Below, piece by piece: positions 2,182-32,614 of a stretch of 35,879 nucleotides of DNA. The position numbers and the translations under genes were made by a program. Numbering within the stretch: position 1 is the stretch's first letter; every line of letters starts with the position of its first letter. The stretch lies in the IMG/VR virus record IMGVR_UViG_3300032308_000359, positions 1-35,879 of that record. One strand, given 5' to 3'. The notes under the pieces are model-generated. The model was given only the letters and a program-made list of their open reading frames with translations. It had not been told where the DNA came from and ran no database searches. Source of the stretch: a virus.

Positions 2182-3591
2182 ATGGCTATACTAGATATAT
2201 TCAAAAGAAAAACCAATACAAACGCAAGCGAAAGCAATAGTCTTTTTGGTCAAACTGCTCTTGGTAATAACATTCTACGCAATGTTAAAGGACAAGGAAA
2301 TCAATCAAATAATCAATTATTATATGTAACAACAAGCTCTGTTAATGCCGCTGGTCGCGTAGTCGATATGTCTATGCTATCACGCAACTCAACTGTAATG
2401 GCTTGTGTAAATGCTAAAGCTAGAGCATTAGCTCAATTACCAATTAATATTATGGCTTATGATGAAAATGGTAAATTAGTTAATGCAGTTACCGATCCTA
2501 ATGTATCAACTAGAGATAAAGCAAAAGCAAAAGCAGTTTATTATTTATTAAACAATCCTAATAACTATCAATCCTCATACGAGTTTTGGTATCAATGGTC
2601 AATGTGGTATGACCTATCAGGTGAAACATTTACTGCTTTATGGCGTAAAGAGCAAACTAACTCAACGCTAACCCCAATGGAAATGTATCTTTTGGATTCA
2701 ACCTTAATAACCGCTCAAATAACACCGACTAGATATCCGACATATCGCTTATCTACATCGACATACGGATTTAATAAGGATGAACCACTAGATTATTTCC
2801 AAGTTATTCATGCTTCAGAAATGGCTTGGCAAGGTAGCGCTGGTTTCAATAAAGGTATTTTAGCAACTGAATTAGTATCACTAGATCAAGATATTGATTT
2901 ATATAGCAATTTTATTATGCTAAATGGTGCTAAACCTAGTGGCATGTTTGTTACAGATCAAGTTATTCCTGACGCTAAATTTAAAGAAATAGCAGCAAGA
3001 TTAAAAGAAGCATGGACTTCTCTTACAGGTTCTAAATCAACCGATTTATCAAAACCAGGTCAAGGTATGTTGTTAGATAACGGCATGAAATATATGCCAT
3101 TAAATATGTTAACACTGCAAGATGCTGACGCGCGAGCATTAAAAGAACAAACTATGAAGCGTATTTGTGGTCTATTTGGTGTTCCACCATCTATGCTTGG
3201 TATTGGTGAAAGTAAATATAACAATACTCAAACTATGCTTGATGAATTTTATAAATCAACAATGTATCCAATGATTGTTAATATTCAGCAAAAATTTAAA
3301 ACATCTTTATTGAATGGCTATCCTAATCTCTGTATTGAATTTCAAACTGAAAGTTTTTTAAAAGGCGCACCTCTTGATCAAATGAATTATGCCGTAGCAG
3401 GTGTAAATAATGGTATAATTACGCCGAATGAAGCGCGAGAATATCTTGGCAAAGAAAACTTTGACGGCGCAGACGAATTAAAAGATACATCAAAACAATC
3501 TAGGTTTATTAGTGGCACTTCACCGCAAGATACAGGTGGCGGCGGCAATACTTCTAGCGTTGGCAAAACAGGTCAGGCAGGTAAAGCCTAA
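2182..3591 (+). CDS. Portal protein, HK97 family
   Basis: The 469-residue protein forms the dodecameric portal at the capsid vertex. Recognisable HK97-family features are the early MSRNSTVMACVNAKARALAQLP helix, the LLNNPNNYQSSYEFW region near residue 120-135, and the central KRICGLFGVPPSMLGIG signature followed by NNTQTMLDEFYKSTMYP. The C-terminus is Gly/Ser/Thr rich (TGGGGNTSSVGKTG), as often seen in portals. The ATG follows AAAGGAAAAAC, a good ribosome binding site. The stop codon shares a base with the next small gene (TAATG). Placement between the large terminase and the protease is canonical. Confidence 0.94.
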   Translation: MAILDIFKRKTNTNASESNSLFGQTALGNNILRNVKGQGNQSNNQLLYVTTSSVNAAGRVVDMSMLSRNSTVMACVNAKARALAQLPINIMAYDENGKLVNAVTDPNVSTRDKAKAKAVYYLLNNPNNYQSSYEFWYQWSMWYDLSGETFTALWRKEQTNSTLTPMEMYLLDSTLITAQITPTRYPTYRLSTSTYGFNKDEPLDYFQVIHASEMAWQGSAGFNKGILATELVSLDQDIDLYSNFIMLNGAKPSGMFVTDQVIPDAKFKEIAARLKEAWTSLTGSKSTDLSKPGQGMLLDNGMKYMPLNMLTLQDADARALKEQTMKRICGLFGVPPSMLGIGESKYNNTQTMLDEFYKSTMYPMIVNIQQKFKTSLLNGYPNLCIEFQTESFLKGAPLDQMNYAVAGVNNGIITPNEAREYLGKENFDGADELKDTSKQSRFISGTSPQDTGGGGNTSSVGKTGQAGKA

Positions 3592-3701
3592 TGACATTAA
3601 AAGAGTTACTCGATAAATTAACCCAACAGGCTAAAAAGAGAAAACCTCAACCTGTTGAAACTAACGGAATGAAAAAAAAGGGAGTTCCAATCAATGATTA
3701 A
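3591..3701 (+). CDS. Small basic protein between portal and protease
   Basis: This 36-codon frame starts inside the portal stop (TAATG) and overlaps the first bases of the protease gene. It begins MTLKELLDKLTQQAKKRKPQ and ends GVPIND, so it is an amphipathic helix followed by a basic tail. I do not recognise a family. Support comes from the exact stop/start overlap, which suggests translational coupling, and from the absence of any other gene in the interval. It also carries the GGGAG ribosome binding site of the protease within its last codons. It could be a head-assembly accessory peptide or merely a translated leader that couples portal to protease. Confidence 0.5.
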   Translation: MTLKELLDKLTQQAKKRKPQPVETNGMKKKGVPIND

Positions 3702-4506
3702 TAAGCTAAATTTTGAAAAGTATTTTTTCGAATCAAAAGTTGCATTAGGTATTAAAACCGATGAAGCTTCAGATTATAGTGGTGTAATTGAAGCGACAGT
3801 AACAACTTTTGGACCAAGAGAAGGCGCTGATGGTCGTAAATTCAATTATAAATCTGAAGGATTTGCTGATTGGATGGATGAATTTATGAAATCAGAAAAA
3901 CCTTTGCCAATGTATTTTCAACATAATGATATGTCAATGCCTGTAGGTGAATGGTATGAATTTATGATGGATGATGAAGGAATGCACGCAAAAGGTAAGA
4001 TGTTTGTTAATACCAGCATGGGTAAGGACTTATATACAATTATGAAGGAAAGCCCAAATCTTGTTGGCGGTGTTTCTGTAGGTGCTTATGCAGACGAATA
4101 CTGCATGACAGATAAAGAAGGCAATGTTTTAGCAGACGATGACGATATGGATGAAGCTTATTTCCAAATTACTAAAGGCGGATTAAGAGAAGTGTCAATC
4201 GTTATGCAACCAAATAATTTAGATGCTGAAATCTCGAAATTAGAGTGCTTTAGAGCCGATGGTTCTTTAGACTTAAAACTTATCGAGAAAGCATTGCGTG
4301 ATGCAAAACTTTCAAGAAAAGATGCGACCACCGCATCTTCAATTTTCAAACAAATTTTAGAAACTCGTGATGAGCCTAAAGTTAAAGTTGAAAATACACC
4401 TATTCAGAGTGAATCCGATGCGGTGGTAAATGAGGAAGATCAATTACTCAAAGCTTTTGAGGAAAGAGAACTCCTTAAAAATCTTAACAATCGTTTAAAA
4501 GGATAA
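3694..4506 (+). CDS. Prohead maturation protease (HK97 family, S78-like)
   Basis: This 270-residue serine protease is expected to cut the N-terminal scaffold domain from the capsid protein during prohead maturation. The candidate catalytic histidine is in MYFQHNDMSMPVGEW (about residue 78). The serine is in NLVGGVSVGAYA (about residue 128), followed by the conserved GGLREVSIVMQPNN block. The C-terminal part is charged and helical, as is usual for this family. The start is supported by GGGAG 9 bases upstream. It sits directly before the major capsid gene with 3 bases between them, matching the HK97 head order. Confidence 0.9.
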   Translation: MINKLNFEKYFFESKVALGIKTDEASDYSGVIEATVTTFGPREGADGRKFNYKSEGFADWMDEFMKSEKPLPMYFQHNDMSMPVGEWYEFMMDDEGMHAKGKMFVNTSMGKDLYTIMKESPNLVGGVSVGAYADEYCMTDKEGNVLADDDDMDEAYFQITKGGLREVSIVMQPNNLDAEISKLECFRADGSLDLKLIEKALRDAKLSRKDATTASSIFKQILETRDEPKVKVENTPIQSESDAVVNEEDQLLKAFEERELLKNLNNRLKG

Positions 4507-4509
4507 ATC

Positions 4510-5847
4510 ATGTCAGAAAAAATTATTGAAAAATTAGATGCTATAGAAGCGGCTAATTTAGCAAAGGTAGAAGAAGTAACTGCTACTGTTGATGCTAAAC
4601 TTGCTGAAACAGTAGCTTCTTTTGATGAAAAAGTAGCGGCACTTGAAGCTAAAGTTGCTTCAATTAACACTGCTCCAATCATTAAAACATACAAATCAAT
4701 TTCGCAAGAAGTTAATCGTATGGTTAAAGGACAATTAGCTGAATTTGTAAAAGGCAATGGTCGCGTAGAAAAAGAAATTAAAATGTTTGAAGATGCTGGT
4801 CAATATGATGCATACATTAAAGAAGCTTCAACTCTAACAGGTTCAGGCGCAGGTATTGGTGGTAGAACTGCTTATGATCCAGTATTTGCGGCATTGCGTT
4901 TAGAAAATCCTATGCGCGGTGTATCTCGTTCAGTTGCTACTGATGGTTCTACATATCAATTTAGAGCTAAAACAGGTAATGCAGGTGTAGGTTGGGGTTA
5001 TGGTGTTGTAGATAATACTGCAGCAACAACTCAAGCAACTGCAATTTGGCAATTAAATCTTAAAGATTTAAATGTTCAATTTCCAATCAGAACTGCGGCT
5101 TTAGATGACATCGATGGTTTAGAATCTAATGTAGTTTCAGATATGTTAGCTGAATTTAGCCAACGCGAAGCTCAATCTATGATTACAAACAACGATCAAG
5201 GTGCGGCTACTGTAACTGCTGGTGGCGGTTCTGACGGCTTACGCTCTCTTAATCAATATCCAGGTGCTAATGCTACTTACACAGGTGGCACTACATCAGA
5301 ATCATCTTTTGGTTCATCAGGAACGGCATCAAGCGATGGTTTGCATAATTTAGCAACATACGATCAAATTACAACAAACGGAAATGCATTAGCAAATAAT
5401 GTTGTTTACAAAGACATTGTTAATTTTGTTTATGCGCTTCCACAAGCATATTGGACACCTAATGCTAAATTCCTTATTAATCCTGTTATGCTTTCAGCAA
5501 TTCGTGGATTAGTGGATGATCAAAAGCGCCCAATTTATGTTGATGGTTTATCTCGCGATGATGGTATTGTTGGTAAATTACTAGGTTTTGATGTTGTAGT
5601 TAATACTTATGTAAATGCACCTTCTAAATACTCTGCATCTGCTGGAACTGATCCATTGTATCCAATGTATTTTGGTGATTTTACTAGAGGTCATACTATT
5701 GTTGATCGTTTAAACATGGTATTACGCCGCTACGATCAAACATTGCCAGGTTCTATTACATTCTATGGTGAAAAGAGATTAGCAACATCTATCGTTGATC
5801 CTTTTGCTTTAGTGCGTTATAGATCAACAAAAACTGCTAGTTTATAG
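4510..5847 (+). CDS. Major capsid protein, HK97 fold with delta domain
   Basis: This 445-residue protein forms the icosahedral shell. The first ~75 residues are rich in Ala, Glu, Lys and Val and look like a coiled coil; this is the delta (scaffold) domain removed by the protease. The mature part starts around EASTLTGSGAGIGGRTAYDP (about residue 105) and carries PIRTAALDDIDGL and EFSQREAQSMITNNDQ. The C-terminal YDQTLPGSITFYGEKR strand is typical of HK97-type capsid proteins. A strong hairpin terminator lies just downstream. A clear paralogue of the mature part is encoded next to it at 5915-6976. Confidence 0.93.
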   Translation: MSEKIIEKLDAIEAANLAKVEEVTATVDAKLAETVASFDEKVAALEAKVASINTAPIIKTYKSISQEVNRMVKGQLAEFVKGNGRVEKEIKMFEDAGQYDAYIKEASTLTGSGAGIGGRTAYDPVFAALRLENPMRGVSRSVATDGSTYQFRAKTGNAGVGWGYGVVDNTAATTQATAIWQLNLKDLNVQFPIRTAALDDIDGLESNVVSDMLAEFSQREAQSMITNNDQGAATVTAGGGSDGLRSLNQYPGANATYTGGTTSESSFGSSGTASSDGLHNLATYDQITTNGNALANNVVYKDIVNFVYALPQAYWTPNAKFLINPVMLSAIRGLVDDQKRPIYVDGLSRDDGIVGKLLGFDVVVNTYVNAPSKYSASAGTDPLYPMYFGDFTRGHTIVDRLNMVLRRYDQTLPGSITFYGEKRLATSIVDPFALVRYRSTKTASL

Positions 5848-5864
5848 CATATTGTAATATGGGG

Positions 5865-5893
5865 AAAAGGCGGTTTTATCGCCGCCTTTTTTT
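5865..5893 (+). terminator. Rho-independent terminator after major capsid gene
   Basis: A 9-bp perfect stem (AAAAGGCGG paired with CCGCCTTTT) encloses an 8-base loop and runs into further T residues. It stands between the major capsid gene and its paralogue, so it should lower transcription of everything downstream relative to the capsid gene unless antiterminated or read through. Confidence 0.85.
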
Positions 5894-5914
5894 CTTAACT
5901 AATTAGGAATACAA

Positions 5915-6976
5915 ATGAATACATCTGAAAAAATTTTAAATGGCATTAAACAGGCATTAACTGAAGGCAAAGCCACAGTTAATTTTACTGATAAGAATAA
6001 GACCAAAGATGTAGAAGAAGCATCAACGCTAACAGGATCAGGTTTAAATATTGGTGGTCGAGTTTATTTTGATGACGCTTTTGCCGCTTTAAGATATGCA
6101 AACCCATTTAGAATGGGAAGCCGTCAAGTTACATACACAGGATCAGCCGCTCAATTTGTAGCAAAAACAGGTAATGCCGCAAACTCAACAAATCCTTGGT
6201 TATATGTTGTTACTCCAAATGCAGGTTCACCAAATATTGCTACAACTACTTGGCAAATGCCAACACGAGTTATTACTGCTCAATTACCAATTAGAACTGC
6301 CGTTATGGATGACATCAATGCTATTGATTCAGCTCTTGTTAATGATTTAATGTTGGAATTTAGTCAATTAGAGGCGCAATCAATGGCAACTAATAATGAC
6401 CAAGCAGGTTCAACAACAAATACAACAGGCGGAACAAGTGGATTAAGAGGTTTAACTACATACTTAACAAGCGCTTCTACTCCAGCTTATGGAAGTAGTG
6501 GAACTGCAATAACAAATGGTATTCATACAATATTAAAAACTGAATTTACTAACACTCAAATAACTTATGATCAAATTGTAGAAGCAGTTAAAGCGTTACC
6601 TTCACAATATATGAATGTTCCAGGAACGGCGTGGCATTTACATCCATCTTTAATTCTTCAATTAAGAAAATTAAAAGGATCAACTGGTGGCGCTCCAATG
6701 TTTGTAGAAACAGGAACGGAAGATGGTGGATCATTAGTTTATTTATTTGGATTCCCTGTTATACCTAATCCATATTTAACAACTCCAGGTTCAGGTTCTT
6801 TATCAGGCGTATTAGCTTGTTGGGAACATTTTTATACTATTGCGGATGCTGAAGAAATGACACTTCAACGCTTTGACCAAACTGCTCCAGGTTTTGTAAC
6901 GCTCTATGCTGAAAAGCGTTTAGCATCAACAATTCGTGATCCTTTTGCTGGAGTATTTTTAATAGGTTCTGCATAA
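5915..6976 (+). CDS. Second capsid-type protein, paralogue of the major capsid protein
   Basis: The 353-residue product aligns with the mature part of the neighbouring capsid protein along its length. Both share EASTLTGSG-x-x-IGGR, FAALR-x-x-NP, AKTGNA, the PIRTA-x-x-DDI block, EFSQ-x-EAQSM-x-TNNDQ, and a C-terminal DQT-x-PG-x-x-T-x-Y-x-EKRLA. It lacks the long coiled-coil delta domain, having only about 35 N-terminal residues before the shared start. It may be a minor capsid subunit (for example at vertices), a decoration-like variant, or an evolving duplicate. The frame is intact and starts behind AGGAATACAA. It overlaps the next gene by one base (TAATG). Confidence 0.85.
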   Translation: MNTSEKILNGIKQALTEGKATVNFTDKNKTKDVEEASTLTGSGLNIGGRVYFDDAFAALRYANPFRMGSRQVTYTGSAAQFVAKTGNAANSTNPWLYVVTPNAGSPNIATTTWQMPTRVITAQLPIRTAVMDDINAIDSALVNDLMLEFSQLEAQSMATNNDQAGSTTNTTGGTSGLRGLTTYLTSASTPAYGSSGTAITNGIHTILKTEFTNTQITYDQIVEAVKALPSQYMNVPGTAWHLHPSLILQLRKLKGSTGGAPMFVETGTEDGGSLVYLFGFPVIPNPYLTTPGSGSLSGVLACWEHFYTIADAEEMTLQRFDQTAPGFVTLYAEKRLASTIRDPFAGVFLIGSA

Positions 6977-7641
6977 TGACTGATACATTAGGACAAGTGC
7001 CGTATGGAACTACTCGCAATCCGTTTAACTATGATAAGTTTGAACAGATTAGTCGCGACTTAACTACAAACTGGCTATCAATAGACGAAATAGCGCAACA
7101 ATTAAATTTAGGAACTGATGAATCGCAAGATGCGTATTTAGAAAGTTTAGAATTAGCCGTTCGCATGCATATTGAAGATTATCTTGGTATGTCAATCTTC
7201 CCTACATCATATAGGGTTTATTATGGCTTATCAGCTAATTTTTCAACGCCTGTTTATTTAGATTTGCCAGTTACAAGTTATGTTGATAAGTTTAATAGTG
7301 GTAATTTAAGCATTACAAAAGTTGCTTATTATAATGGAAGCACACCAAGCGTTTTAACAACGATTGCTTCAAGTAATTATTATTATGATTCGACAGGAAA
7401 TAAAGTTGTATTAAATAGCGGTATTCCATCGGATGTAAGCACTTTTAGAACAAGTCCTGTCATTGTTGAATATACACAAAATGCAAACTTTACACAGGCT
7501 TATCCTGTAATTAAGCAAGCTGGATTATTATTATTTACGCATCTTTATAATAATAGATCAGAATCAGTAACGGATGGTTTGCAAAAGATTCCTTATGGAG
7601 TGGATTGTTTATTAAGACCTTATAAACCATTGGTAATGTAA
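6976..7641 (+). CDS. Head-tail connector (gp6-like adaptor)
   Basis: This 221-residue protein lies where HK97-type phages encode the adaptor that docks under the portal. It has an N-terminal helical part (SIDEIAQQLNLGTDE, then AYLESLELAVRMHIEDYLGMSI), a pattern typical of gp6/gp8-like connectors, and a beta-rich middle. The C-terminal helical segment contains PVIKQAGLLLFTHLYNNRSE, also characteristic. It begins in the stop codon of the capsid paralogue. The call is based on motif pattern plus position. Confidence 0.75.
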   Translation: MTDTLGQVPYGTTRNPFNYDKFEQISRDLTTNWLSIDEIAQQLNLGTDESQDAYLESLELAVRMHIEDYLGMSIFPTSYRVYYGLSANFSTPVYLDLPVTSYVDKFNSGNLSITKVAYYNGSTPSVLTTIASSNYYYDSTGNKVVLNSGIPSDVSTFRTSPVIVEYTQNANFTQAYPVIKQAGLLLFTHLYNNRSESVTDGLQKIPYGVDCLLRPYKPLVM

Positions 7642-20573: not shown

Positions 20574-22628
20574 ATGGCTTCCGAAATTACATTAGTTGTC
20601 GATAAAGGCATTATTGGACCAACAGGTCCTGCGGGTGGCGGTCCTACTGGACCAACAGGAAGTCCTGGTTATGTCGGAACTGACGGACCGACTGGTCCTA
20701 CAGGCGCGATAGGTCCTACAGGGGCTTTTGGCGGTCCTACTGGTCCTACTGGCGCAGCATCTTCGGTTGCTGGTCCTACAGGTCCTACAGGATTATCTAT
20801 CACAGGTCCAACGGGATCAACAGGTCCTACGGGTTCTGCTTCATCAGTTGCAGGTCCTACAGGTCCAACTGGGGTTGGGGCTACAGGTCCTACGGGAGCA
20901 GCTTCTAGCGTTCAAGGTCCGACTGGTCCAACAGGTGCAGTAGGCACTTCAATTACAGGTCCAACAGGTCCAACGGGATCAACTGGAGCTGCGTCAAGTG
21001 TAGCTGGTCCTACAGGTCCAACGGGCGCACAGGGTGATATTGGTAATATAGGTCCTACAGGCGCACAAGGAATACAAGGCATACAAGGAATACAAGGAAT
21101 CGTTGGTCCGACTGGACCTACAGGAACTACAGGGGCAGCATCAACTGTGGCAGGTCCTACTGGTCCGACAGGTTCTACAGGTGCGGCATCAACAGTCGCA
21201 GGACCTACTGGTCCTACGGGAAATACTGGCACATCTATTACAGGACCTACTGGTCCAACGGGTAGCACAGGTGCAGCTTCTACTGTAGCTGGTCCAACAG
21301 GACCTACGGGTAGCGTTGGAAGCACAGGCGGACTTGGACCTACTGGACCGCAAGGAATTCAGGGCATACAAGGCGAGGTCGGACCGACAGGACCACAAGG
21401 CAATCTTGGAAATCTTGGACCTACAGGACCTACGGGTTCTGCAAGCAATGTAGCTGGACCGACAGGATCGGTTGGAGCTACAGGACCTACAGGCGCTCAA
21501 GGTGCTGATGGCGTATCATCAAGCTATTATCAATATCAAGCTGATACAAGTCAAACAAGCGGAACACCTGCGGCTGGCGATGTTTATTGGAATAATGCAA
21601 CTCAAACATCCGCAACAAGTCTTACATTTAGTCATTTAACATCTAATGATATTGATGTTGATGTATTTTTAGGTATCTTAAAAACAAATGATATTCTTAT
21701 ATTGCAAGATGCAAACAATTCTGCAAATTATCAAAAATGGTTAGTAACTGCAACTCCAACAGTTATACCTAATACTTCTATTACTGTTCCCGTATCTTTA
21801 ACAACTTCTGAAGGAACAGGCTCAACTGGCTTTGCAAACAATCATCAATTAATTGCTATTGTTCAATCAGTAGGTGTAACAGGTCCTACAGGACCACAGG
21901 GCGCGGTTGGACCTACAGGAAGCACAGGTGGAATCGGAAATACAGGACCGACAGGAAGTCAAGGCAATGTTGGACCTACTGGACCGACAGGAAGTGTTGG
22001 AAGTGTTGGACCTACAGGACCTCAAGGGATACAAGGGATACAAGGGGTTCAGGGTGATATTGGACCTACAGGTCCTACGGGCGCAAACGGAATCGTTGGA
22101 GCTGGTGGACCTACAGGACCGACTGGAGCTAACTCTACAGTAGCAGGACCAACTGGACCGACTGGTGCTGATTCAATTGTTGCAGGACCGACTGGACCGA
22201 CAGGGACTACAGGGGCTGGCGGACCGACAGGACCAAACGGAGTGGTTGGACCTACAGGACCACAGGGGGTTATTGGTGATACGGGAGCGGTTGGACCGAC
22301 AGGACCACAAGGGATACAAGGGATACAGGGCATACAAGGGATTGTAGGACCGACAGGACCAACAGGAAATAATGGAAGTAACGGACCAACAGGACCGACA
22401 GGCACTAGCGGATCAACTTTATTTACTTACGATCAATTTACTGCAACTGCCGCACAAACAACATTTACAACATCTCAAACTTATGTTTCAGGTAAGATAA
22501 GTGTATATTTGCAAGGTGTTAAAATGATAAACGGAACGGATGTAACTGTATCAAGCGGAACATCTATTGTGTTTGCAACAGCATTAGCTGAAGGGCAGTT
22601 GGTGGATGCAAATTATCCAAAAATATAA
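20574..22628 (+). CDS. Collagen-like tail fibre
   Basis: The 684-residue protein has two collagen-like Gly-X-Y blocks, about residues 15-314 and 434-613, dominated by GPT and by GIQGIQ and GAQG variants. Non-collagen spacers (for example AASSVA, AASTVA) interrupt the first block at intervals. A globular ~120-residue domain separates the blocks ([21 protein letters not shown] to the [11 protein letters not shown] region). The last ~70 residues form a knob with [20 protein letters not shown], likely the trimerisation or receptor-binding head. Gly-X-Y triple helices are known in phage side fibres. Bacteria lack proline hydroxylation, and the high Thr in the Y position may compensate for stability. 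Confidence 0.88.
20616..21515 (+). repeat. Collagen-type coding repeat, first block
   Basis: Repeated 9-base units read GGT/GGA-CCT-ACA and variants, encoding Gly-Pro-Thr triplets. They form larger units separated by short Ala-Ser-Ser-Val-Ala spacers. The repetition makes recombination and copy-number change likely, and it produces long false frames on the other strand. Confidence 0.85.
21873..22412 (+). repeat. Collagen-type coding repeat, second block
   Basis: A second run of Gly-X-Y codons follows the internal globular domain. It contains two GIQGIQG elements and several spacers such as NSTVA and DSIVA. It is near-identical in unit sequence to the first block, which suggests internal duplication. 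Confidence 0.85.
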
Positions 22629-22648: not shown

Positions 22649-23695
22649 ATGAAAATAGCGGTATATGCGATAAGCAAAAATGAAGAACAGTTTGTTAAAA
22701 GATTCTGTGAATCGGCTAAAAATGCAGATTTAATTTTGATAGCCGACACAGGATCAACAGATAATACTGTTCAGTTATCTAAAGATTGTGGCGCTACTGT
22801 TTATGATATAGCAATCACACCTTGGCGATTTGATAAAGCTCGCGATGCGGCATTAGCATTAATACCTAAAGACTTTGATGTTTGTATAAGCCTTGATCTT
22901 GATGAGGAATTACAAGAAGGCTGGCGCGAAGAAATAGAACGAGTATGGAAAGATGATACAACTCGATTAAGATATAAGTTTGATTGGGGTCAGGGTATCG
23001 CTTTCTATTACGAGAAGATTCATGCTAGACATGGTTATCATTGGCATCATCCATGCCATGAGTATCCTGTTCCTGATGCAAGAATTAAAGAGGTATGGGC
23101 GCAAACAGATATGTTGTTAGTGATCCACAAGCCTGATCCTACTAAATCAAGAGGACAGTATTTAGATTTATTATTGCTTGCGGTAACTGAAGACCCTAGA
23201 TGTCCTAGAAACGCATTTTATTATGCAAGAGAATTAACCTTTTATCATAGATGGCTTGATGCGGTTGTCGCATTAAACAAATATTTAGATATGCCCGAAG
23301 CTACATGGCAAAATGAAAGATGTTATGCTATGCGCTTACTGGGTAAATGCTATGATGAATTAAATCATAATGGCGTTGAGTGGTTTAAAAAAGCTTGTAA
23401 TGAAGCACCTAACACTCGCGAACCTTGGGTTGAATTATCAGAATCATATTACAAAAAATTAATGTGGCAAGAATCTTTAGATGCGGGATTAAGAGCATTA
23501 GAAATTAAAAACAAAGAACTTGTATATACAATGAATCCAGCAGTATGGGGCGCATTACCACATGATTATATTGCTATAGCTGCACACAATTTAGGACTTA
23601 AAGATTTAGCTATTCAGCATGGTGAAATTGCATTAGAATTAGAGCCTGAAAATGAAAGGTTGAAAGTTAATCTTGAATTCTACAGAAACAATTGA
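22649..23695 (+). CDS. Family 2 glycosyltransferase with TPR-like C-terminus
   Basis: This 348-residue protein starts with the GT-A fold of family 2: KIAVYAISKNEEQFVKRF, then LILIADTGSTDNTVQ, and a metal-binding DLD at residues 83-85 (CISLDLDEEL). The part from about residue 175 is helical with paired-helix repeats (NAFYYARELTFYHRWLDAVV; EPWVELSESYYKKLMWQESL; DYIAIAAHNLGLKDLAIQHG) that look like TPR units. This domain pairing is common in phage and bacterial glycosyltransferases. Downstream of the fibres, it may glycosylate tail protein or host surface glycans. Start: AAAGGATAAGAT before ATG. Confidence 0.85.
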   Translation: MKIAVYAISKNEEQFVKRFCESAKNADLILIADTGSTDNTVQLSKDCGATVYDIAITPWRFDKARDAALALIPKDFDVCISLDLDEELQEGWREEIERVWKDDTTRLRYKFDWGQGIAFYYEKIHARHGYHWHHPCHEYPVPDARIKEVWAQTDMLLVIHKPDPTKSRGQYLDLLLLAVTEDPRCPRNAFYYARELTFYHRWLDAVVALNKYLDMPEATWQNERCYAMRLLGKCYDELNHNGVEWFKKACNEAPNTREPWVELSESYYKKLMWQESLDAGLRALEIKNKELVYTMNPAVWGALPHDYIAIAAHNLGLKDLAIQHGEIALELEPENERLKVNLEFYRNN

Positions 23696-25128: not shown

Positions 25129-25767
25129 TTATATTTCCTTTAAGTTATTAACAATAGTTTCTATTTCCTGTAAGAACAAAGTCACTTTGTCTTCCATGTT
25201 TTTAATATATTCATCATCTCGATAAATACGCTTTACATACCCCCTCAAATGATCAGGCATTTCGGGATCAAATGATACAAGGTCGCAAAATTCTTTTTCA
25301 GGCATGCAAGCAAGTTGCCACATAACCTGGTCATAATACTGTTCTAATTGTTTACCATCGGTCAAAATATTGTCCAAATGGTTTTCGGGATTGGGTATTT
25401 TAATTTCAATCAATGAATTGGTAGCTTCAACTATGCCATCCGGGCTACATTGACCACCTATAACTGTAGGGTGCAAAACAATGGCTACTTGATCCACAAA
25501 TGTATTATAGTGAACCTCATACCAAGCCCTAGCCATTGGCTCTAAATCAATTCCTCGTTGCATTGCAGGCGTTTTGTAGGTATCTAATTTGCGCCCAGTA
25601 AGCCTTTCCCTAATTAATTCATTTTTATATTTTCTACGAGTTAAAGATTCAGCACCGCTACGACCTTCAGTTAAAAGATCAGCAACACGAGAGCCGCCTA
25701 TTTTACCGACCCGAAGTGCCATCCATTCAGGACTGCCTTGCACAATATCTCTTATTATTCTTTCCAT
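25129..25767 (-). CDS. YqaJ-type recombination exonuclease (lambda Exo-like)
   Basis: A 212-residue nuclease expected to resect double-stranded ends 5' to 3' for ERF-mediated annealing. All main motifs are present: QGSPEWMALRVGKIGGS at residues 10-26, RGIDLEP at 71-77 (Glu76), SPDG with Asp110, the EIK catalytic signature at Glu121-Lys123, and QYYDQVMWQ at 143-151, which matches the conserved Q-Y-x-x-Q pattern. It pairs with the ERF gene just upstream, separated only by a 57-codon gene. Length is normal for the family. A terminating SSB-like gene follows almost directly. Confidence 0.93.
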   Translation of the reverse strand: MERIIRDIVQGSPEWMALRVGKIGGSRVADLLTEGRSGAESLTRRKYKNELIRERLTGRKLDTYKTPAMQRGIDLEPMARAWYEVHYNTFVDQVAIVLHPTVIGGQCSPDGIVEATNSLIEIKIPNPENHLDNILTDGKQLEQYYDQVMWQLACMPEKEFCDLVSFDPEMPDHLRGYVKRIYRDDEYIKNMEDKVTLFLQEIETIVNNLKEI

Positions 25768-25775
25768 TTAAGTTC

Positions 25776-25949
25776 CTATTTAATTGGTTTATCTAGTTTC
25801 TTGGTTAAAGGTGCTAACAAATATTTATCACCTAAAAATCTTTTTAAAGCTTCAACTTTAGTTCGCCTTGCTTCAGCTTGCATAAGTTCTTTAGAGGTTG
25901 TTTCAATGGGATAGCCATAAACATTACGAATTATAGGATCATCAATCAT
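25776..25949 (-). CDS. Small protein between ERF and exonuclease
   Basis: A 57-codon frame on the minus strand whose ATG overlaps the ERF stop (ATGA) and which ends 8 bases before the exonuclease start. It reads MIDDPIIRNVYGYP and later EALKRFLGDKYLLAPL: an acidic start with a Lys-rich helical end. Both overlaps and spacing argue that it is translated as part of the recombination operon. No family is recognised. Being encoded between annealase and exonuclease, it may be an accessory factor. Confidence 0.65.
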   Translation of the reverse strand: MIDDPIIRNVYGYPIETTSKELMQAEARRTKVEALKRFLGDKYLLAPLTKKLDKPIK

Positions 25950-26488
25950 AGCTCCGCCTTTCTTTTATCTTTAGCATCAATGACCATTTTAGAAAGGGTG
26001 CGATCATTTTTAACTTCACCCATAACAAAATTATAATTAACTTGTAGTTCTTCTAAAGTTTGTGAGTGTTGAATTTTTTGAAGATAATCTGCTGCATTTA
26101 GTGCGGCTGATTGACCATCGTCATCATCGGCATATAAAGCACACATACTTGAAATAGAGTATCTGCGAATGTAACTAATAGCGCTGCCAAGTCCTTGCGG
26201 GTCTTGTTTTTGAATAGGGCAGACGGCAGTATCCTCAATCCATTCACCCGAACTATGGAGTAAACGAGTGGTTAGATGGAGTTTATTATCATCTGAAGGG
26301 CTTAATGATTGAAGGATAGCAATATTATTATTATTAAGAGGAGCTTTAACCGCTTCAATAACTGAATTAATATTTGCGTATTTAGATTTAAAGTGAGGAT
26401 TGGTAGAATCTTTAGTTGCAAATTTAATTTCTTTTTGCGCAAATACTAAAGCTTCAGCAATATGCTTGATGCTTTCAGAGGTTTTCAT
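25946..26488 (-). CDS. ERF-superfamily single-strand annealing protein
   Basis: This 180-residue protein is a phage recombinase that anneals complementary single strands. It carries the ERF signature NPHFKSKYANINSVIEAVKA (about residues 30-50), then LTTRLLHSSGEWIEDTAVCP and the Gly-rich DPQGLGSAISYIRRY followed by SISSMCALYADDDDG. The length fits ERF proteins. It starts behind AAAAAGGACAAGATAAG, close to a copy of the ACGAAACTTTT leader motif. With YqaJ and the SSB-like protein it forms a complete two-component recombination set, which suggests recombination-dependent genome processing. Confidence 0.93.
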   Translation of the reverse strand: MKTSESIKHIAEALVFAQKEIKFATKDSTNPHFKSKYANINSVIEAVKAPLNNNNIAILQSLSPSDDNKLHLTTRLLHSSGEWIEDTAVCPIQKQDPQGLGSAISYIRRYSISSMCALYADDDDGQSAALNAADYLQKIQHSQTLEELQVNYNFVMGEVKNDRTLSKMVIDAKDKRKAEL

Positions 26489-30993: not shown

Positions 30994-31425
30994 ATGACAC
31001 TAGACGATAAGATAAGCTTTAAATCTATGATGGATACGCTTGCATCAATCTATCAAAAACAACCACTAGATCAGGATGCATTAAGAGTTTGGTTTTATAA
31101 GCTTGAAAGATTTGAATTTAATCAAGTAACAAAAGCTTTTGATAAATGGGTTGATCAATCACGCTTTATGCCAACCCCTTCAGATATATTGCAATTGGTA
31201 AAAGAAAAACCAATTGAGTTTATGAAATTAGAAGCTCCAAAGCTTTCTCAAATAGAAAATAAAAAGCATGCAGATAAGCTTTTGGGAATGGTCAATGAAA
31301 GGTTACCACAAGAAGATAAGAAGATTAAAGATATGAGAGCTTGGGCGCATAGGATTATTGCCAATCCTAAAAATTATCCGCCTATATCTTTAGAATTTGC
31401 AAAGGAAGCTATCAATGCTAAATAA
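30994..31425 (+). CDS. Helicase-loader / replisome-organiser-like protein
   Basis: This 143-residue protein resembles phage helicase-loader proteins (G39P/gp59-like in role): an N-terminal helical bundle with YQKQPLDQDALRVWFYKLER, FNQVTKAFDKWVDQSRFMPT and the PTPSDIL motif, followed by a charged linker and a C-terminal helix. It is encoded with the DUF1376 initiator and the recombination genes, so a replication role fits. No helicase gene is recognised in the window, so it would load the host DnaB. AAAAGGATAATAA precedes the start. Confidence 0.65.
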   Translation: MTLDDKISFKSMMDTLASIYQKQPLDQDALRVWFYKLERFEFNQVTKAFDKWVDQSRFMPTPSDILQLVKEKPIEFMKLEAPKLSQIENKKHADKLLGMVNERLPQEDKKIKDMRAWAHRIIANPKNYPPISLEFAKEAINAK

Positions 31426-32614
31426 TACAATAGAAAATAAAGACCTTTTTGATGAGGATGTATCTCAATCAATTGAAAACAATACGGCTTACGATCATTG
31501 GATTGATATGCCCGAATACAATAATATTAATGAGCCTGAAGCAGAAATAACTGCTACTTTTAAATTTAGAAATATAAATGATTATGAGGAGTTTAAAGAA
31601 AAGGCAAAAAAATATATTTACGATGGCGACAAGTTATTTGATGGAAGCCAAACTAAAACAAAAAAACAAGCTTGGTATCCACTAAAAGAAAAAGCTAGTA
31701 AATATAGATATAGAGTTAAAAATTCCAAGAACCCTAGATTTCCTATTTACATAGTAAGTAAGGGAAGATTCAGAAAAAACCCTACAAGCGCAACATTAAT
31801 GAAAATGAATATTCCTTTCTACATAATTGTTGAGGAACAGGAATACAATGAATATTGTAATTTGGTTGGTAAAGATAAAGTTCTTATCCTTCCTGAAAAA
31901 TATAAGACTAAATATGATACTTTTTGGAAAGATGAAGACCCAAGAACAGGACCAGGACCTGCAAGAAATTTTGCATGGGATCATTCTATAGATAATGGAT
32001 TTGCTTGGCATTGGGTTATGGATGACAACATAGAAAGCTTTGAACGCTTTAATAAGAACATGAAAATAAATTGCAATGATGGCACTTATTTTTATGCGTG
32101 TGAAGATTTTATTTTAAGATATACAAACATTGCAATTGCAGGTCTTAATTATGCTAATTTTTGTCATTCACATGAAGCTAGACCACCATTTTTAACTAAC
32201 ACTAGAATTTATAGTTGTTTATTGATAAGAAACGATATTCCTTATAGATGGCGTGGTCGTTACAATGAAGACACCGATTTATCTTTAAGAGTATTAAAAG
32301 ATGGTTATTGCACAGTTCAATTTAATGCATTACTTCAGGGTAAGATGGCTACTCAAAAAATTAAAGGTGGAAACACTAAAGAGTTTTATGAGGGCGAAGG
32401 CACTATGAATAAATCTAAAATGCTACAAGATATGCACCCTGATGTTGCAAAAGTAGTATGGCGTTTTAATAGATGGCATCATCATGTTGATTACAAACCT
32501 TTTAAAAAAAATCAATTAATTTTAAAAGACAACATTATGATTCCGAATCGAATTAATAATTATGATATGGAGCTAATAAATGCAAGCGACACAAAACAAA
32601 TGGAAGAAGATTAG
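31415..32614 (+). CDS. TET-associated-type glycosyltransferase (TAGT), possible DNA modification enzyme
   Basis: I place the start at the ATG at 31415 because AAGGAAG lies 7 bases upstream; an earlier TTG lacks this. The ~399-residue protein has an N-terminal small domain (EITATFKFRNINDYEEFKEK ... WYPLKEKASK) and then a GT-A-like core: PIYIVSKGRF at about 110, IVEEQEYNEYC, GPGPARNFAWDHSI, and WVMDDNIESF with the metal-binding DDN at 203-205. RYNEDTDLSLRVLKDGYC follows. This pattern is that of the TAGT family, predicted to glycosylate modified bases. No TET/JBP dioxygenase or base hydroxylase is visible here, so the acceptor is unclear. Confidence 0.8.
   Translation: MLNNTIENKDLFDEDVSQSIENNTAYDHWIDMPEYNNINEPEAEITATFKFRNINDYEEFKEKAKKYIYDGDKLFDGSQTKTKKQAWYPLKEKASKYRYRVKNSKNPRFPIYIVSKGRFRKNPTSATLMKMNIPFYIIVEEQEYNEYCNLVGKDKVLILPEKYKTKYDTFWKDEDPRTGPGPARNFAWDHSIDNGFAWHWVMDDNIESFERFNKNMKINCNDGTYFYACEDFILRYTNIAIAGLNYANFCHSHEARPPFLTNTRIYSCLLIRNDIPYRWRGRYNEDTDLSLRVLKDGYCTVQFNALLQGKMATQKIKGGNTKEFYEGEGTMNKSKMLQDMHPDVAKVVWRFNRWHHHVDYKPFKKNQLILKDNIMIPNRINNYDMELINASDTKQMEED

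Follow-up and report, generated by a model that had tools for sequence, protein, structure and literature searches.

Introduction

In most well-studied tailed phages one protein forms both the pentamers and the hexamers of the head, and T4 is the textbook exception. The T4 protein gp24, described as a probably duplicated gp23, forms eleven pentamers; the two proteins are about 20% identical, the propeptide of gp24 has 10 residues versus 65 in gp23, and the attachment of gp24 is thought to trigger the T4 protease (PMC9958956). In the T4 genome a strong UUCG hairpin with a T run was found directly behind gene 23, followed by the homing endonuclease gene segD on the other strand and then by gene 24. 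Another precedent is Ccm of the satellite SaPIbov5. According to PMC8569155, Ccm (delta 1–87) occupies the pentamers of the phi12 CP shell (delta 1–128) and is cleaved, redirects the head size by taking the pentamers, is 24% identical to CP, and is unable to form shells alone. The RcGTA particle is described as building both pentamers and hexamers from one capsid protein (PMC7296036), and the Family 2B two-component encapsulins (PDB 9bje/9bix) are listed as non-viral shells with two HK97-fold proteins each.

Head operon of the window

The window, i.e. the whole stretch of DNA that was analysed, belongs to a small freshwater-type phage and comprises an IMG/VR virus record 35,879 bases in length. 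Genes of a head operon occupy its left end, namely TerL, portal, S78 protease, MCP, MCP2 and connector, with a gap of three bases between protease and MCP and an overlap of one base between MCP2 and connector. The two capsid ORFs (445 and 353 aa) were found exactly as the earlier note had placed them. The features considered here are as follows.

2182–3591, plus strand: portal protein (PF04860, 3.9e-59)
3694–4506, plus strand: prohead protease, S78 (PF04586, 1.9e-11; TIGR01543, 2.8e-11, below the cut-off of that model)
4510–5847, plus strand: MCP, HK97-type major capsid protein precursor, 445 aa (PF05065, 1e-31; TIGR01554, 4e-29); residues 1 to about 105, delta domain (coiled coil), then the junction [LIMV]-x-E105-A-S-x-L-T-G-S-G, then the mature domain
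5845–5914, plus strand: spacer between the capsid genes, including the stop codon
5864–5891, plus strand: RNA hairpin, 11-bp stem, 6-nt loop and T run on the 3' side, terminator-like (fold z -3.5; terminator scan 5869–5883)
5915–6976, plus strand: MCP2, capsid paralogue, 353 aa, proposed minor (vertex) shell subunit (BLASTP to MCP, 1e-69; PF05065, 6e-18)
5915–6019, plus strand: N-terminal precursor peptide of MCP2, residues 1–35, helix 3–17 predicted, E35-A-S junction at its end, cleavage presumed
6976–7641, plus strand: head-tail connector, directly after MCP2 (phrog_442, 9.7e-12; PF05135, 6.5e-5)

The gap between portal and protease genes is filled by an ORF of 36 residues (3591–3701) which overlaps the portal stop and possibly encodes an unannotated small head-operon protein. 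Most relatives have a counterpart of similar sequence that is equal or almost equal in length; the ORF is divergent in L052 and L056, a longer ORF is inserted in L040, and the gap is closed in L113 and L189.

The arrangement is like that of T4 gp23/gp24 in having the paralogue downstream of the MCP gene, a hairpin right after the MCP gene and a shorter precursor part on the paralogue. It differs from T4, whose genome has 169 kb, whose head is prolate and whose core proteins are separate, in a genome of about 36–39 kb and an MCP with a fused delta domain; moreover, segD intervenes between genes 23 and 24, and gp23 and gp24 share about 20% identity versus 40% between MCP and MCP2. Like Ccm, MCP2 is an HK97-fold capsid homologue with a shorter N-terminal precursor part than MCP, in a delta-domain system without a separate scaffold. 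Unlike the satellite-borne Ccm, which resizes the head of its helper, MCP2 is encoded by the phage itself, in its head operon and flanked by MCP and connector, and this position rules out a satellite gene of the SaPI Ccm type.

The nearest isolate found was the Methylophilaceae phage P19250A (KX815270), with collinear head genes and MCP and MCP2 proteins 70 and 69% identical to those of the window. Its MCP2 is annotated as 'hypothetical protein', an annotation which can now be corrected to capsid paralogue. Literature related to P19250A does not mention a second capsid gene in its available portions (PMC8163748, PMC8024684, PMC12195039, PMC9004378), and no printed description of a tandem MCP/MCP2 pair was found in the titles and abstract beginnings covered by the search, most subscription papers lying outside it.

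Kinship and fold of the two capsid proteins

Direct BLASTP identified 135 identical residues in 336 positions between MCP and MCP2 (40%, E 1e-69, MCP residues 103–433), and the profile-profile comparison gave an E value of 2.2e-90 over 314 columns. Every sequence block quoted in the earlier note as a sign of capsid gene duplication and common descent is present in the alignment, and that claim stands. PF05065 (Phage_capsid) matched MCP with 110.8 and MCP2 with 65.7 bits (curated cut-off 24.2), and TIGR01554 (major_cap_HK97) with 101.8 and 62.8 bits, respectively (MCP2 3e-17; curated cut-off 27.5). Since both proteins match both families, their resemblance is not due to chance, and on these alignments MCP2 is a paralogue of MCP.

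No sequence kinship with T4 gp24 was detectable, the best BLASTP match of MCP2 having an E value of 0.16 over 29 aa. An orthologue of gp24 is thus ruled out by sequence, the nearest relative of MCP2 among those searched being its own MCP, and the T4 pair and the MCP/MCP2 pair are independent duplications.

Structure models built from 40 MCP and 52 MCP2 sequences were of moderate confidence (mean pLDDT 64 and 69, respectively). The best match of both models was the RcGTA capsid protein (MCP2: Z 23.3, 261 residues, rmsd 3.8; MCP: Z 19.5), and HK97 head structures were found further down both lists of fold matches. The RcGTA major capsid protein Rcc01687 was the closest solved relative also by profile (6e-8 for MCP2, 6e-10 for MCP); unlike RcGTA with its one capsid protein, the lineage of the window has two capsid genes. 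An HK97 fold is predicted for MCP2 by its model. T4 gp24 was absent among the best 50 fold matches listed for MCP2, to which no weight is attached.

The predicted helix 2–51 of MCP corresponds to the long helix of the coiled-coil delta domain. MCP2 lacks MCP residues 1–57 and 60–81, i.e. most of the delta domain with its coiled-coil part of about 80 residues, and also most of the MCP loops 252–259, 290–295 and 374–381 and the last residues. Altogether 54 columns were both at least 95% conserved and identical in the two families, among them E105/E35, S107/S37, T110/T40 and G113/G43 (MCP/MCP2), and only four columns were fixed but different: R152/V82, T173/P106, F321/W240 and F388/L300.

N-terminal peptide and junction

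The earlier note had described MCP2 as the mature region without the delta domain. This is correct for the coiled coil, which is present in MCP and absent from MCP2, but a short N-terminal peptide of about 35 residues has been kept together with the E-A-S junction. The peptide is conserved (consensus ..ILxGIKxALxEGxAxV..), with a predicted helix at residues 3–17, and is followed by E-A-S-x-L-T-G-S-G, the junction which in MCP divides the delta domain from the mature part. All 40 MCP sequences compared had E105, and E35 was invariant in 53 and in 52 sequences of MCP2.

As the N-terminal peptide ends at the same junction as the delta domain of MCP, also MCP2 is probably a cleaved precursor; MCP is the expected substrate of the S78 protease and MCP2 probably another. 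The proteases of T4, phiKZ, 201phi2-1 and SPN3US are reported to cleave after Glu in a short motif (PMC5694885), and a cut after the junction Glu would therefore be reasonable. For phi12, the residue before the cut is given as K or R (PMC8569155). In P19250A the same unusual change was present at both junctions (QAGLQGSG in one and AAGLQGSG in the other), which is suggestive of co-evolution, but identical 8-mers were found in only 25 of the 70 distinct MCP/MCP2 site pairs, a count that leaves out L189, L140, L194 and L145, in which the regular expression missed the MCP site (the motif is visible in three of these four MCP stretches), and that includes rows shifted by the same miss, four of MCP reading xIGNPAG and one of MCP2 reading ASVDLKEAATFNS.

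In four loci MCP2 has 440–441 residues, with a domain of about 100 residues ahead of the usual peptide:

L052, 2816–4138: extended MCP2
L056, 5691–7010: extended MCP2
L082, 5936–7258: extended MCP2
L167, 5931–7253: extended MCP2

The extra domain was assigned to phrog_2859 in L052 and L056, the scan having covered these two, and tblastn detected it in 87 phage records, including vibriophages, haloviruses and Pseudomonas phage PaBG. It also heads proteins of 816 and 836 residues in Roseobacter phage CRP-811 and Synechococcus phage S-CBS1, respectively, the later parts of which match S78 protease and capsid families (the Pfam protease match of S-CBS1 being below the cut-off). It is a recurring domain, and the presence of a domain of head precursors at the N-terminus of MCP2 agrees with entry of this protein into the prohead.

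Conservation, duplication and selection

Relatives were collected with MCP as the bait, so that the presence of MCP2 was not presupposed. Each scan covered the best 80 loci, and relatives were sampled down to about 60% MCP identity. The first set included at least 195 loci, with the window represented twice and some contigs retrieved in duplicate. MCP was present in 184 loci of this set and MCP2 also in 175, the remaining nine contigs ending at most 188 bases past MCP. A second scan, started from distant MCPs, gave at least 71 new locus identifiers (some on contigs already in the first set), of which 67 held both genes and four lay on contigs ending at most 190 bases past MCP. Both genes were also present in all five loci from the genome collection. 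No sampled locus of either set had MCP without MCP2 where the contig continued downstream. The pair is apparently old and obligatory in this lineage, which comprises P19250A and many IMG/VR contigs.

The gene had been described as intact in the window, and it proved to be both intact and conserved; decay in relatives was looked for and was met with only in L234, where MCP2 is split by a frame change. In L249 it is MCP that is split, and since also MCP can be broken in this way, the frame breaks in the two loci point to sequence errors.

The loci with the RHph_X2_25 capsid type, 78 in number, included exactly one capsid gene in 73 cases, none shown in four and a piece in one, and a second capsid gene was found in none of them. 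No single-copy relatives bridging the range between about 60 and 30% MCP identity were found among the best 80 loci of each scan.

The tree, constructed with a quick method from 45 MCPs, 45 MCP2s and three outgroup sequences, united all MCP2s into one clade (SH-aLRT 100), the stem of which measured 1.45 changes per column. Such a single clade fits one old duplication, and its depth rules out a recent one. In the tree MCP2 is nested within the MCPs, with starred support and a long-branch warning, and the outgroup branches measure 1.7–7.2 changes; because of these long branches and very long outgroups, no particular MCP branch is claimed to be the one that duplicated. A horizontal origin of MCP2 in some other type of phage is not favoured, as no sequence outside the lineage was found to be nearer to MCP2 than its own MCP, although a lost donor is conceivable.

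The first set yielded 110 distinct complete MCP/MCP2 protein pairs. The median dN/dS (NG86, pairs with dS 0.05–1) was 0.20 for MCP and 0.21 for MCP2 in the 71 pairs with five complete genes, values that indicate purifying selection on MCP2 like that on MCP. The family matches, the BLASTP and profile kinship and the dN/dS together rule out MCP2 as a chance ORF or a pseudogene.

The amino-acid distances of MCP2 were correlated with those of the connector (r 0.81) and the portal (r 0.80), and only weakly with those of MCP (r 0.58); special co-evolution of MCP and MCP2, looked for by this correlation, was not found, the two varying together no more closely than other gene pairs. Compared with the window, L016 has 99% identity in MCP and 83% in MCP2, and L004 97 and 99%, respectively. 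Among close relatives, recombination seems to separate the two capsid genes. The window also holds a RecE-like exonuclease (25129–25767) and an Erf-like annealing protein (25946–26488), both on the minus strand, a recombination pair in line with mosaic histories of neighbouring head genes.

Spacer hairpin and codon usage

The hairpin of the window has a stem of 11 bp (5864–5874/5881–5891) running into T's, with a fold z of -3.5 against shuffles. The spacer between MCP and MCP2 was 38–82 nt long in the 90 distinct spacers of relatives, and a hairpin (stem of at least 6 bp with at least four G-C pairs) was present in 89 of them, as compared with 632 of 4500 shuffles (14%) and with 2, 1 and 1 of 90 in neighbouring control stretches. 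The fold z was below -2 in 71 of the 90. Altogether 54 different 5' arms occurred among the spacers, and thus the structure has been kept while its sequence has turned over. A T-rich tail (at least five T in the eight bases next to the best stem) accompanied 56 of the 90, by a rule that fails stems whose A-U pairs consume the T run, which is the window's own type. A canonical intrinsic terminator throughout the family is not supported by this count, and the family element is therefore better called a hairpin. The terminator proposed earlier between the two genes holds as a real, terminator-like hairpin in the window. Either process, partial termination or protection of the 3' end of the MCP message, would lead to more MCP than MCP2.

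As a proxy of expression, the C-ending fraction among five two-fold codon pairs was calculated from the 59 of the 110 pairs with six complete genes, codon bias of this sort being a mark of high expression. The median was 0.386 for MCP and 0.250 for MCP2, with TerL, portal, protease, MCP2 and connector all between 0.241 and 0.281. MCP exceeded MCP2 in 53 of the 59 loci, which, being related, are not independent events; the overall GC3 of MCP was not raised. In the window the gap is small (MCP 0.187, MCP2 0.154), and TerL (0.182) is close to MCP. MCP thus appears to carry a high-expression codon signature which MCP2 does not, weakly so in the window itself. The high-to-low expression ratio suggested in the earlier note is supported indirectly, by the conserved hairpin and the bias over 59 loci, with MCP presumably made in larger amounts than MCP2; the codon bias of the window itself lends it little.

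Proposed role of MCP2

The homology, tandem order, conservation, selection, hairpin, junction sequence and codon-bias difference are observed directly. We propose, by analogy with gp24 and Ccm, that MCP2 is probably a minor HK97-fold shell subunit co-assembling with MCP, most likely as the pentamers at the eleven non-portal vertices; its cleavage, presence in the virion, low copy number and pentamer position are inferred. That MCP2 is built into the shell in one way or another, all co-assembly readings taken together, is considered highly probable. A vertex protein is not required a priori, because pentamers are described as built from MCP alone in most well-studied phages (PMC9958956). The vertex role, which the earlier note had given as an example of a minor subunit, is taken as the best explanation because MCP2 shares with gp24 and Ccm those traits that can be read from sequence: homology to MCP, a shorter precursor part and, with T4, adjacency and the hairpin.

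In the proposed assembly, MCP in excess would provide the hexamers and, through its delta domain, the scaffold function. MCP2 would be made in smaller amounts, the hairpin after the MCP gene partly ending transcription or protecting the upstream message, and would be drawn into the same prohead by capsid contacts and its short N-terminal peptide. Cleavage of both proteins by the S78 protease at the common [LIMV]-x-E|A-S junction would follow.

Non-specific co-assembly, in which MCP2 takes the place of some MCP subunits within hexamers, either randomly or following a set pattern, to give a two-component shell, is regarded as unlikely. The mature domains, 40% identical and with 54 common near-invariant columns, may have kept the hexamer contacts, and two-component HK97-fold shells are on record (9bje/9bix); however, one strongly conserved minor copy, the shorter propeptide and the order MCP, hairpin, paralogue fit the vertex precedents better.

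It seems distinctly unlikely that MCP2, as a resident counterpart of the Ccm size switch, controls assembly by setting the size or shape of the head, its nucleation or the timing of the protease, and is itself missing, in part or entirely, from mature virions. Such a function would agree with the redirection of head size by Ccm via pentamers and with the supposed triggering of the T4 protease by gp24, as these are described in the two sources cited above, but there is no need for a regulator to retain the complete mature domain at a dN/dS of 0.21, and this role also overlaps the vertex reading.

MCP2 might also surround or seat the portal vertex, or form a small ring between shell and connector, as its gene lies between MCP and connector and its rate of change follows those of connector and portal. 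This is thought very improbable: what MCP2 retains is the full HK97 fold, as modelled, with the junction motif of MCP, and not the features of a connector, and we know of no portal-ring protein of HK97 fold. Hardly any credence is given to MCP2 being redundant, a pseudogene in the course of being lost, or a different shell used under particular conditions, as the one split MCP2 in L234 might suggest: throughout the sampled lineage the gene is intact and next to MCP, it is under purifying selection, and its clade fits one old duplication.

The chances seem evenly balanced that a lineage of delta-domain phages of about 36–39 kb has reinvented the cassette 'hexamer gene, hairpin, penton gene' independently of T4, its MCP having ceded the vertices to a hairpin-dosed paralogue that has no scaffold coiled coil and is unable to assemble alone. 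No earlier case of an HK97-type (scaffold-fused) phage encoding a dedicated penton protein is known to us; if the proposal is true, MCP2 would be the first, and size switches of satellites, Ccm for example, could plausibly have arisen from a source of this kind. This small, widely sampled lineage would offer a second, simpler case for why a phage splits the penton and hexamer roles, bearing on how a subunit without a scaffold domain is recruited and dosed and on how penton proteins become satellite size switches. As the isolate P19250A exists, the role of MCP2 is testable.

Other genes of the window

Two glycosyltransferase-like genes were present in the window, one at 22649–23695 (phrog_13126, beta-1,4-glycosyltransferase) and the other at 31397–32614 (phrog_842, beta-glucosyl-HMC-alpha-glucosyltransferase), hinting at glycosylation of DNA or surface. 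A tail-fibre protein of 684 aa (20574–22628) matched many tail-fibre and collagen-like phage families.
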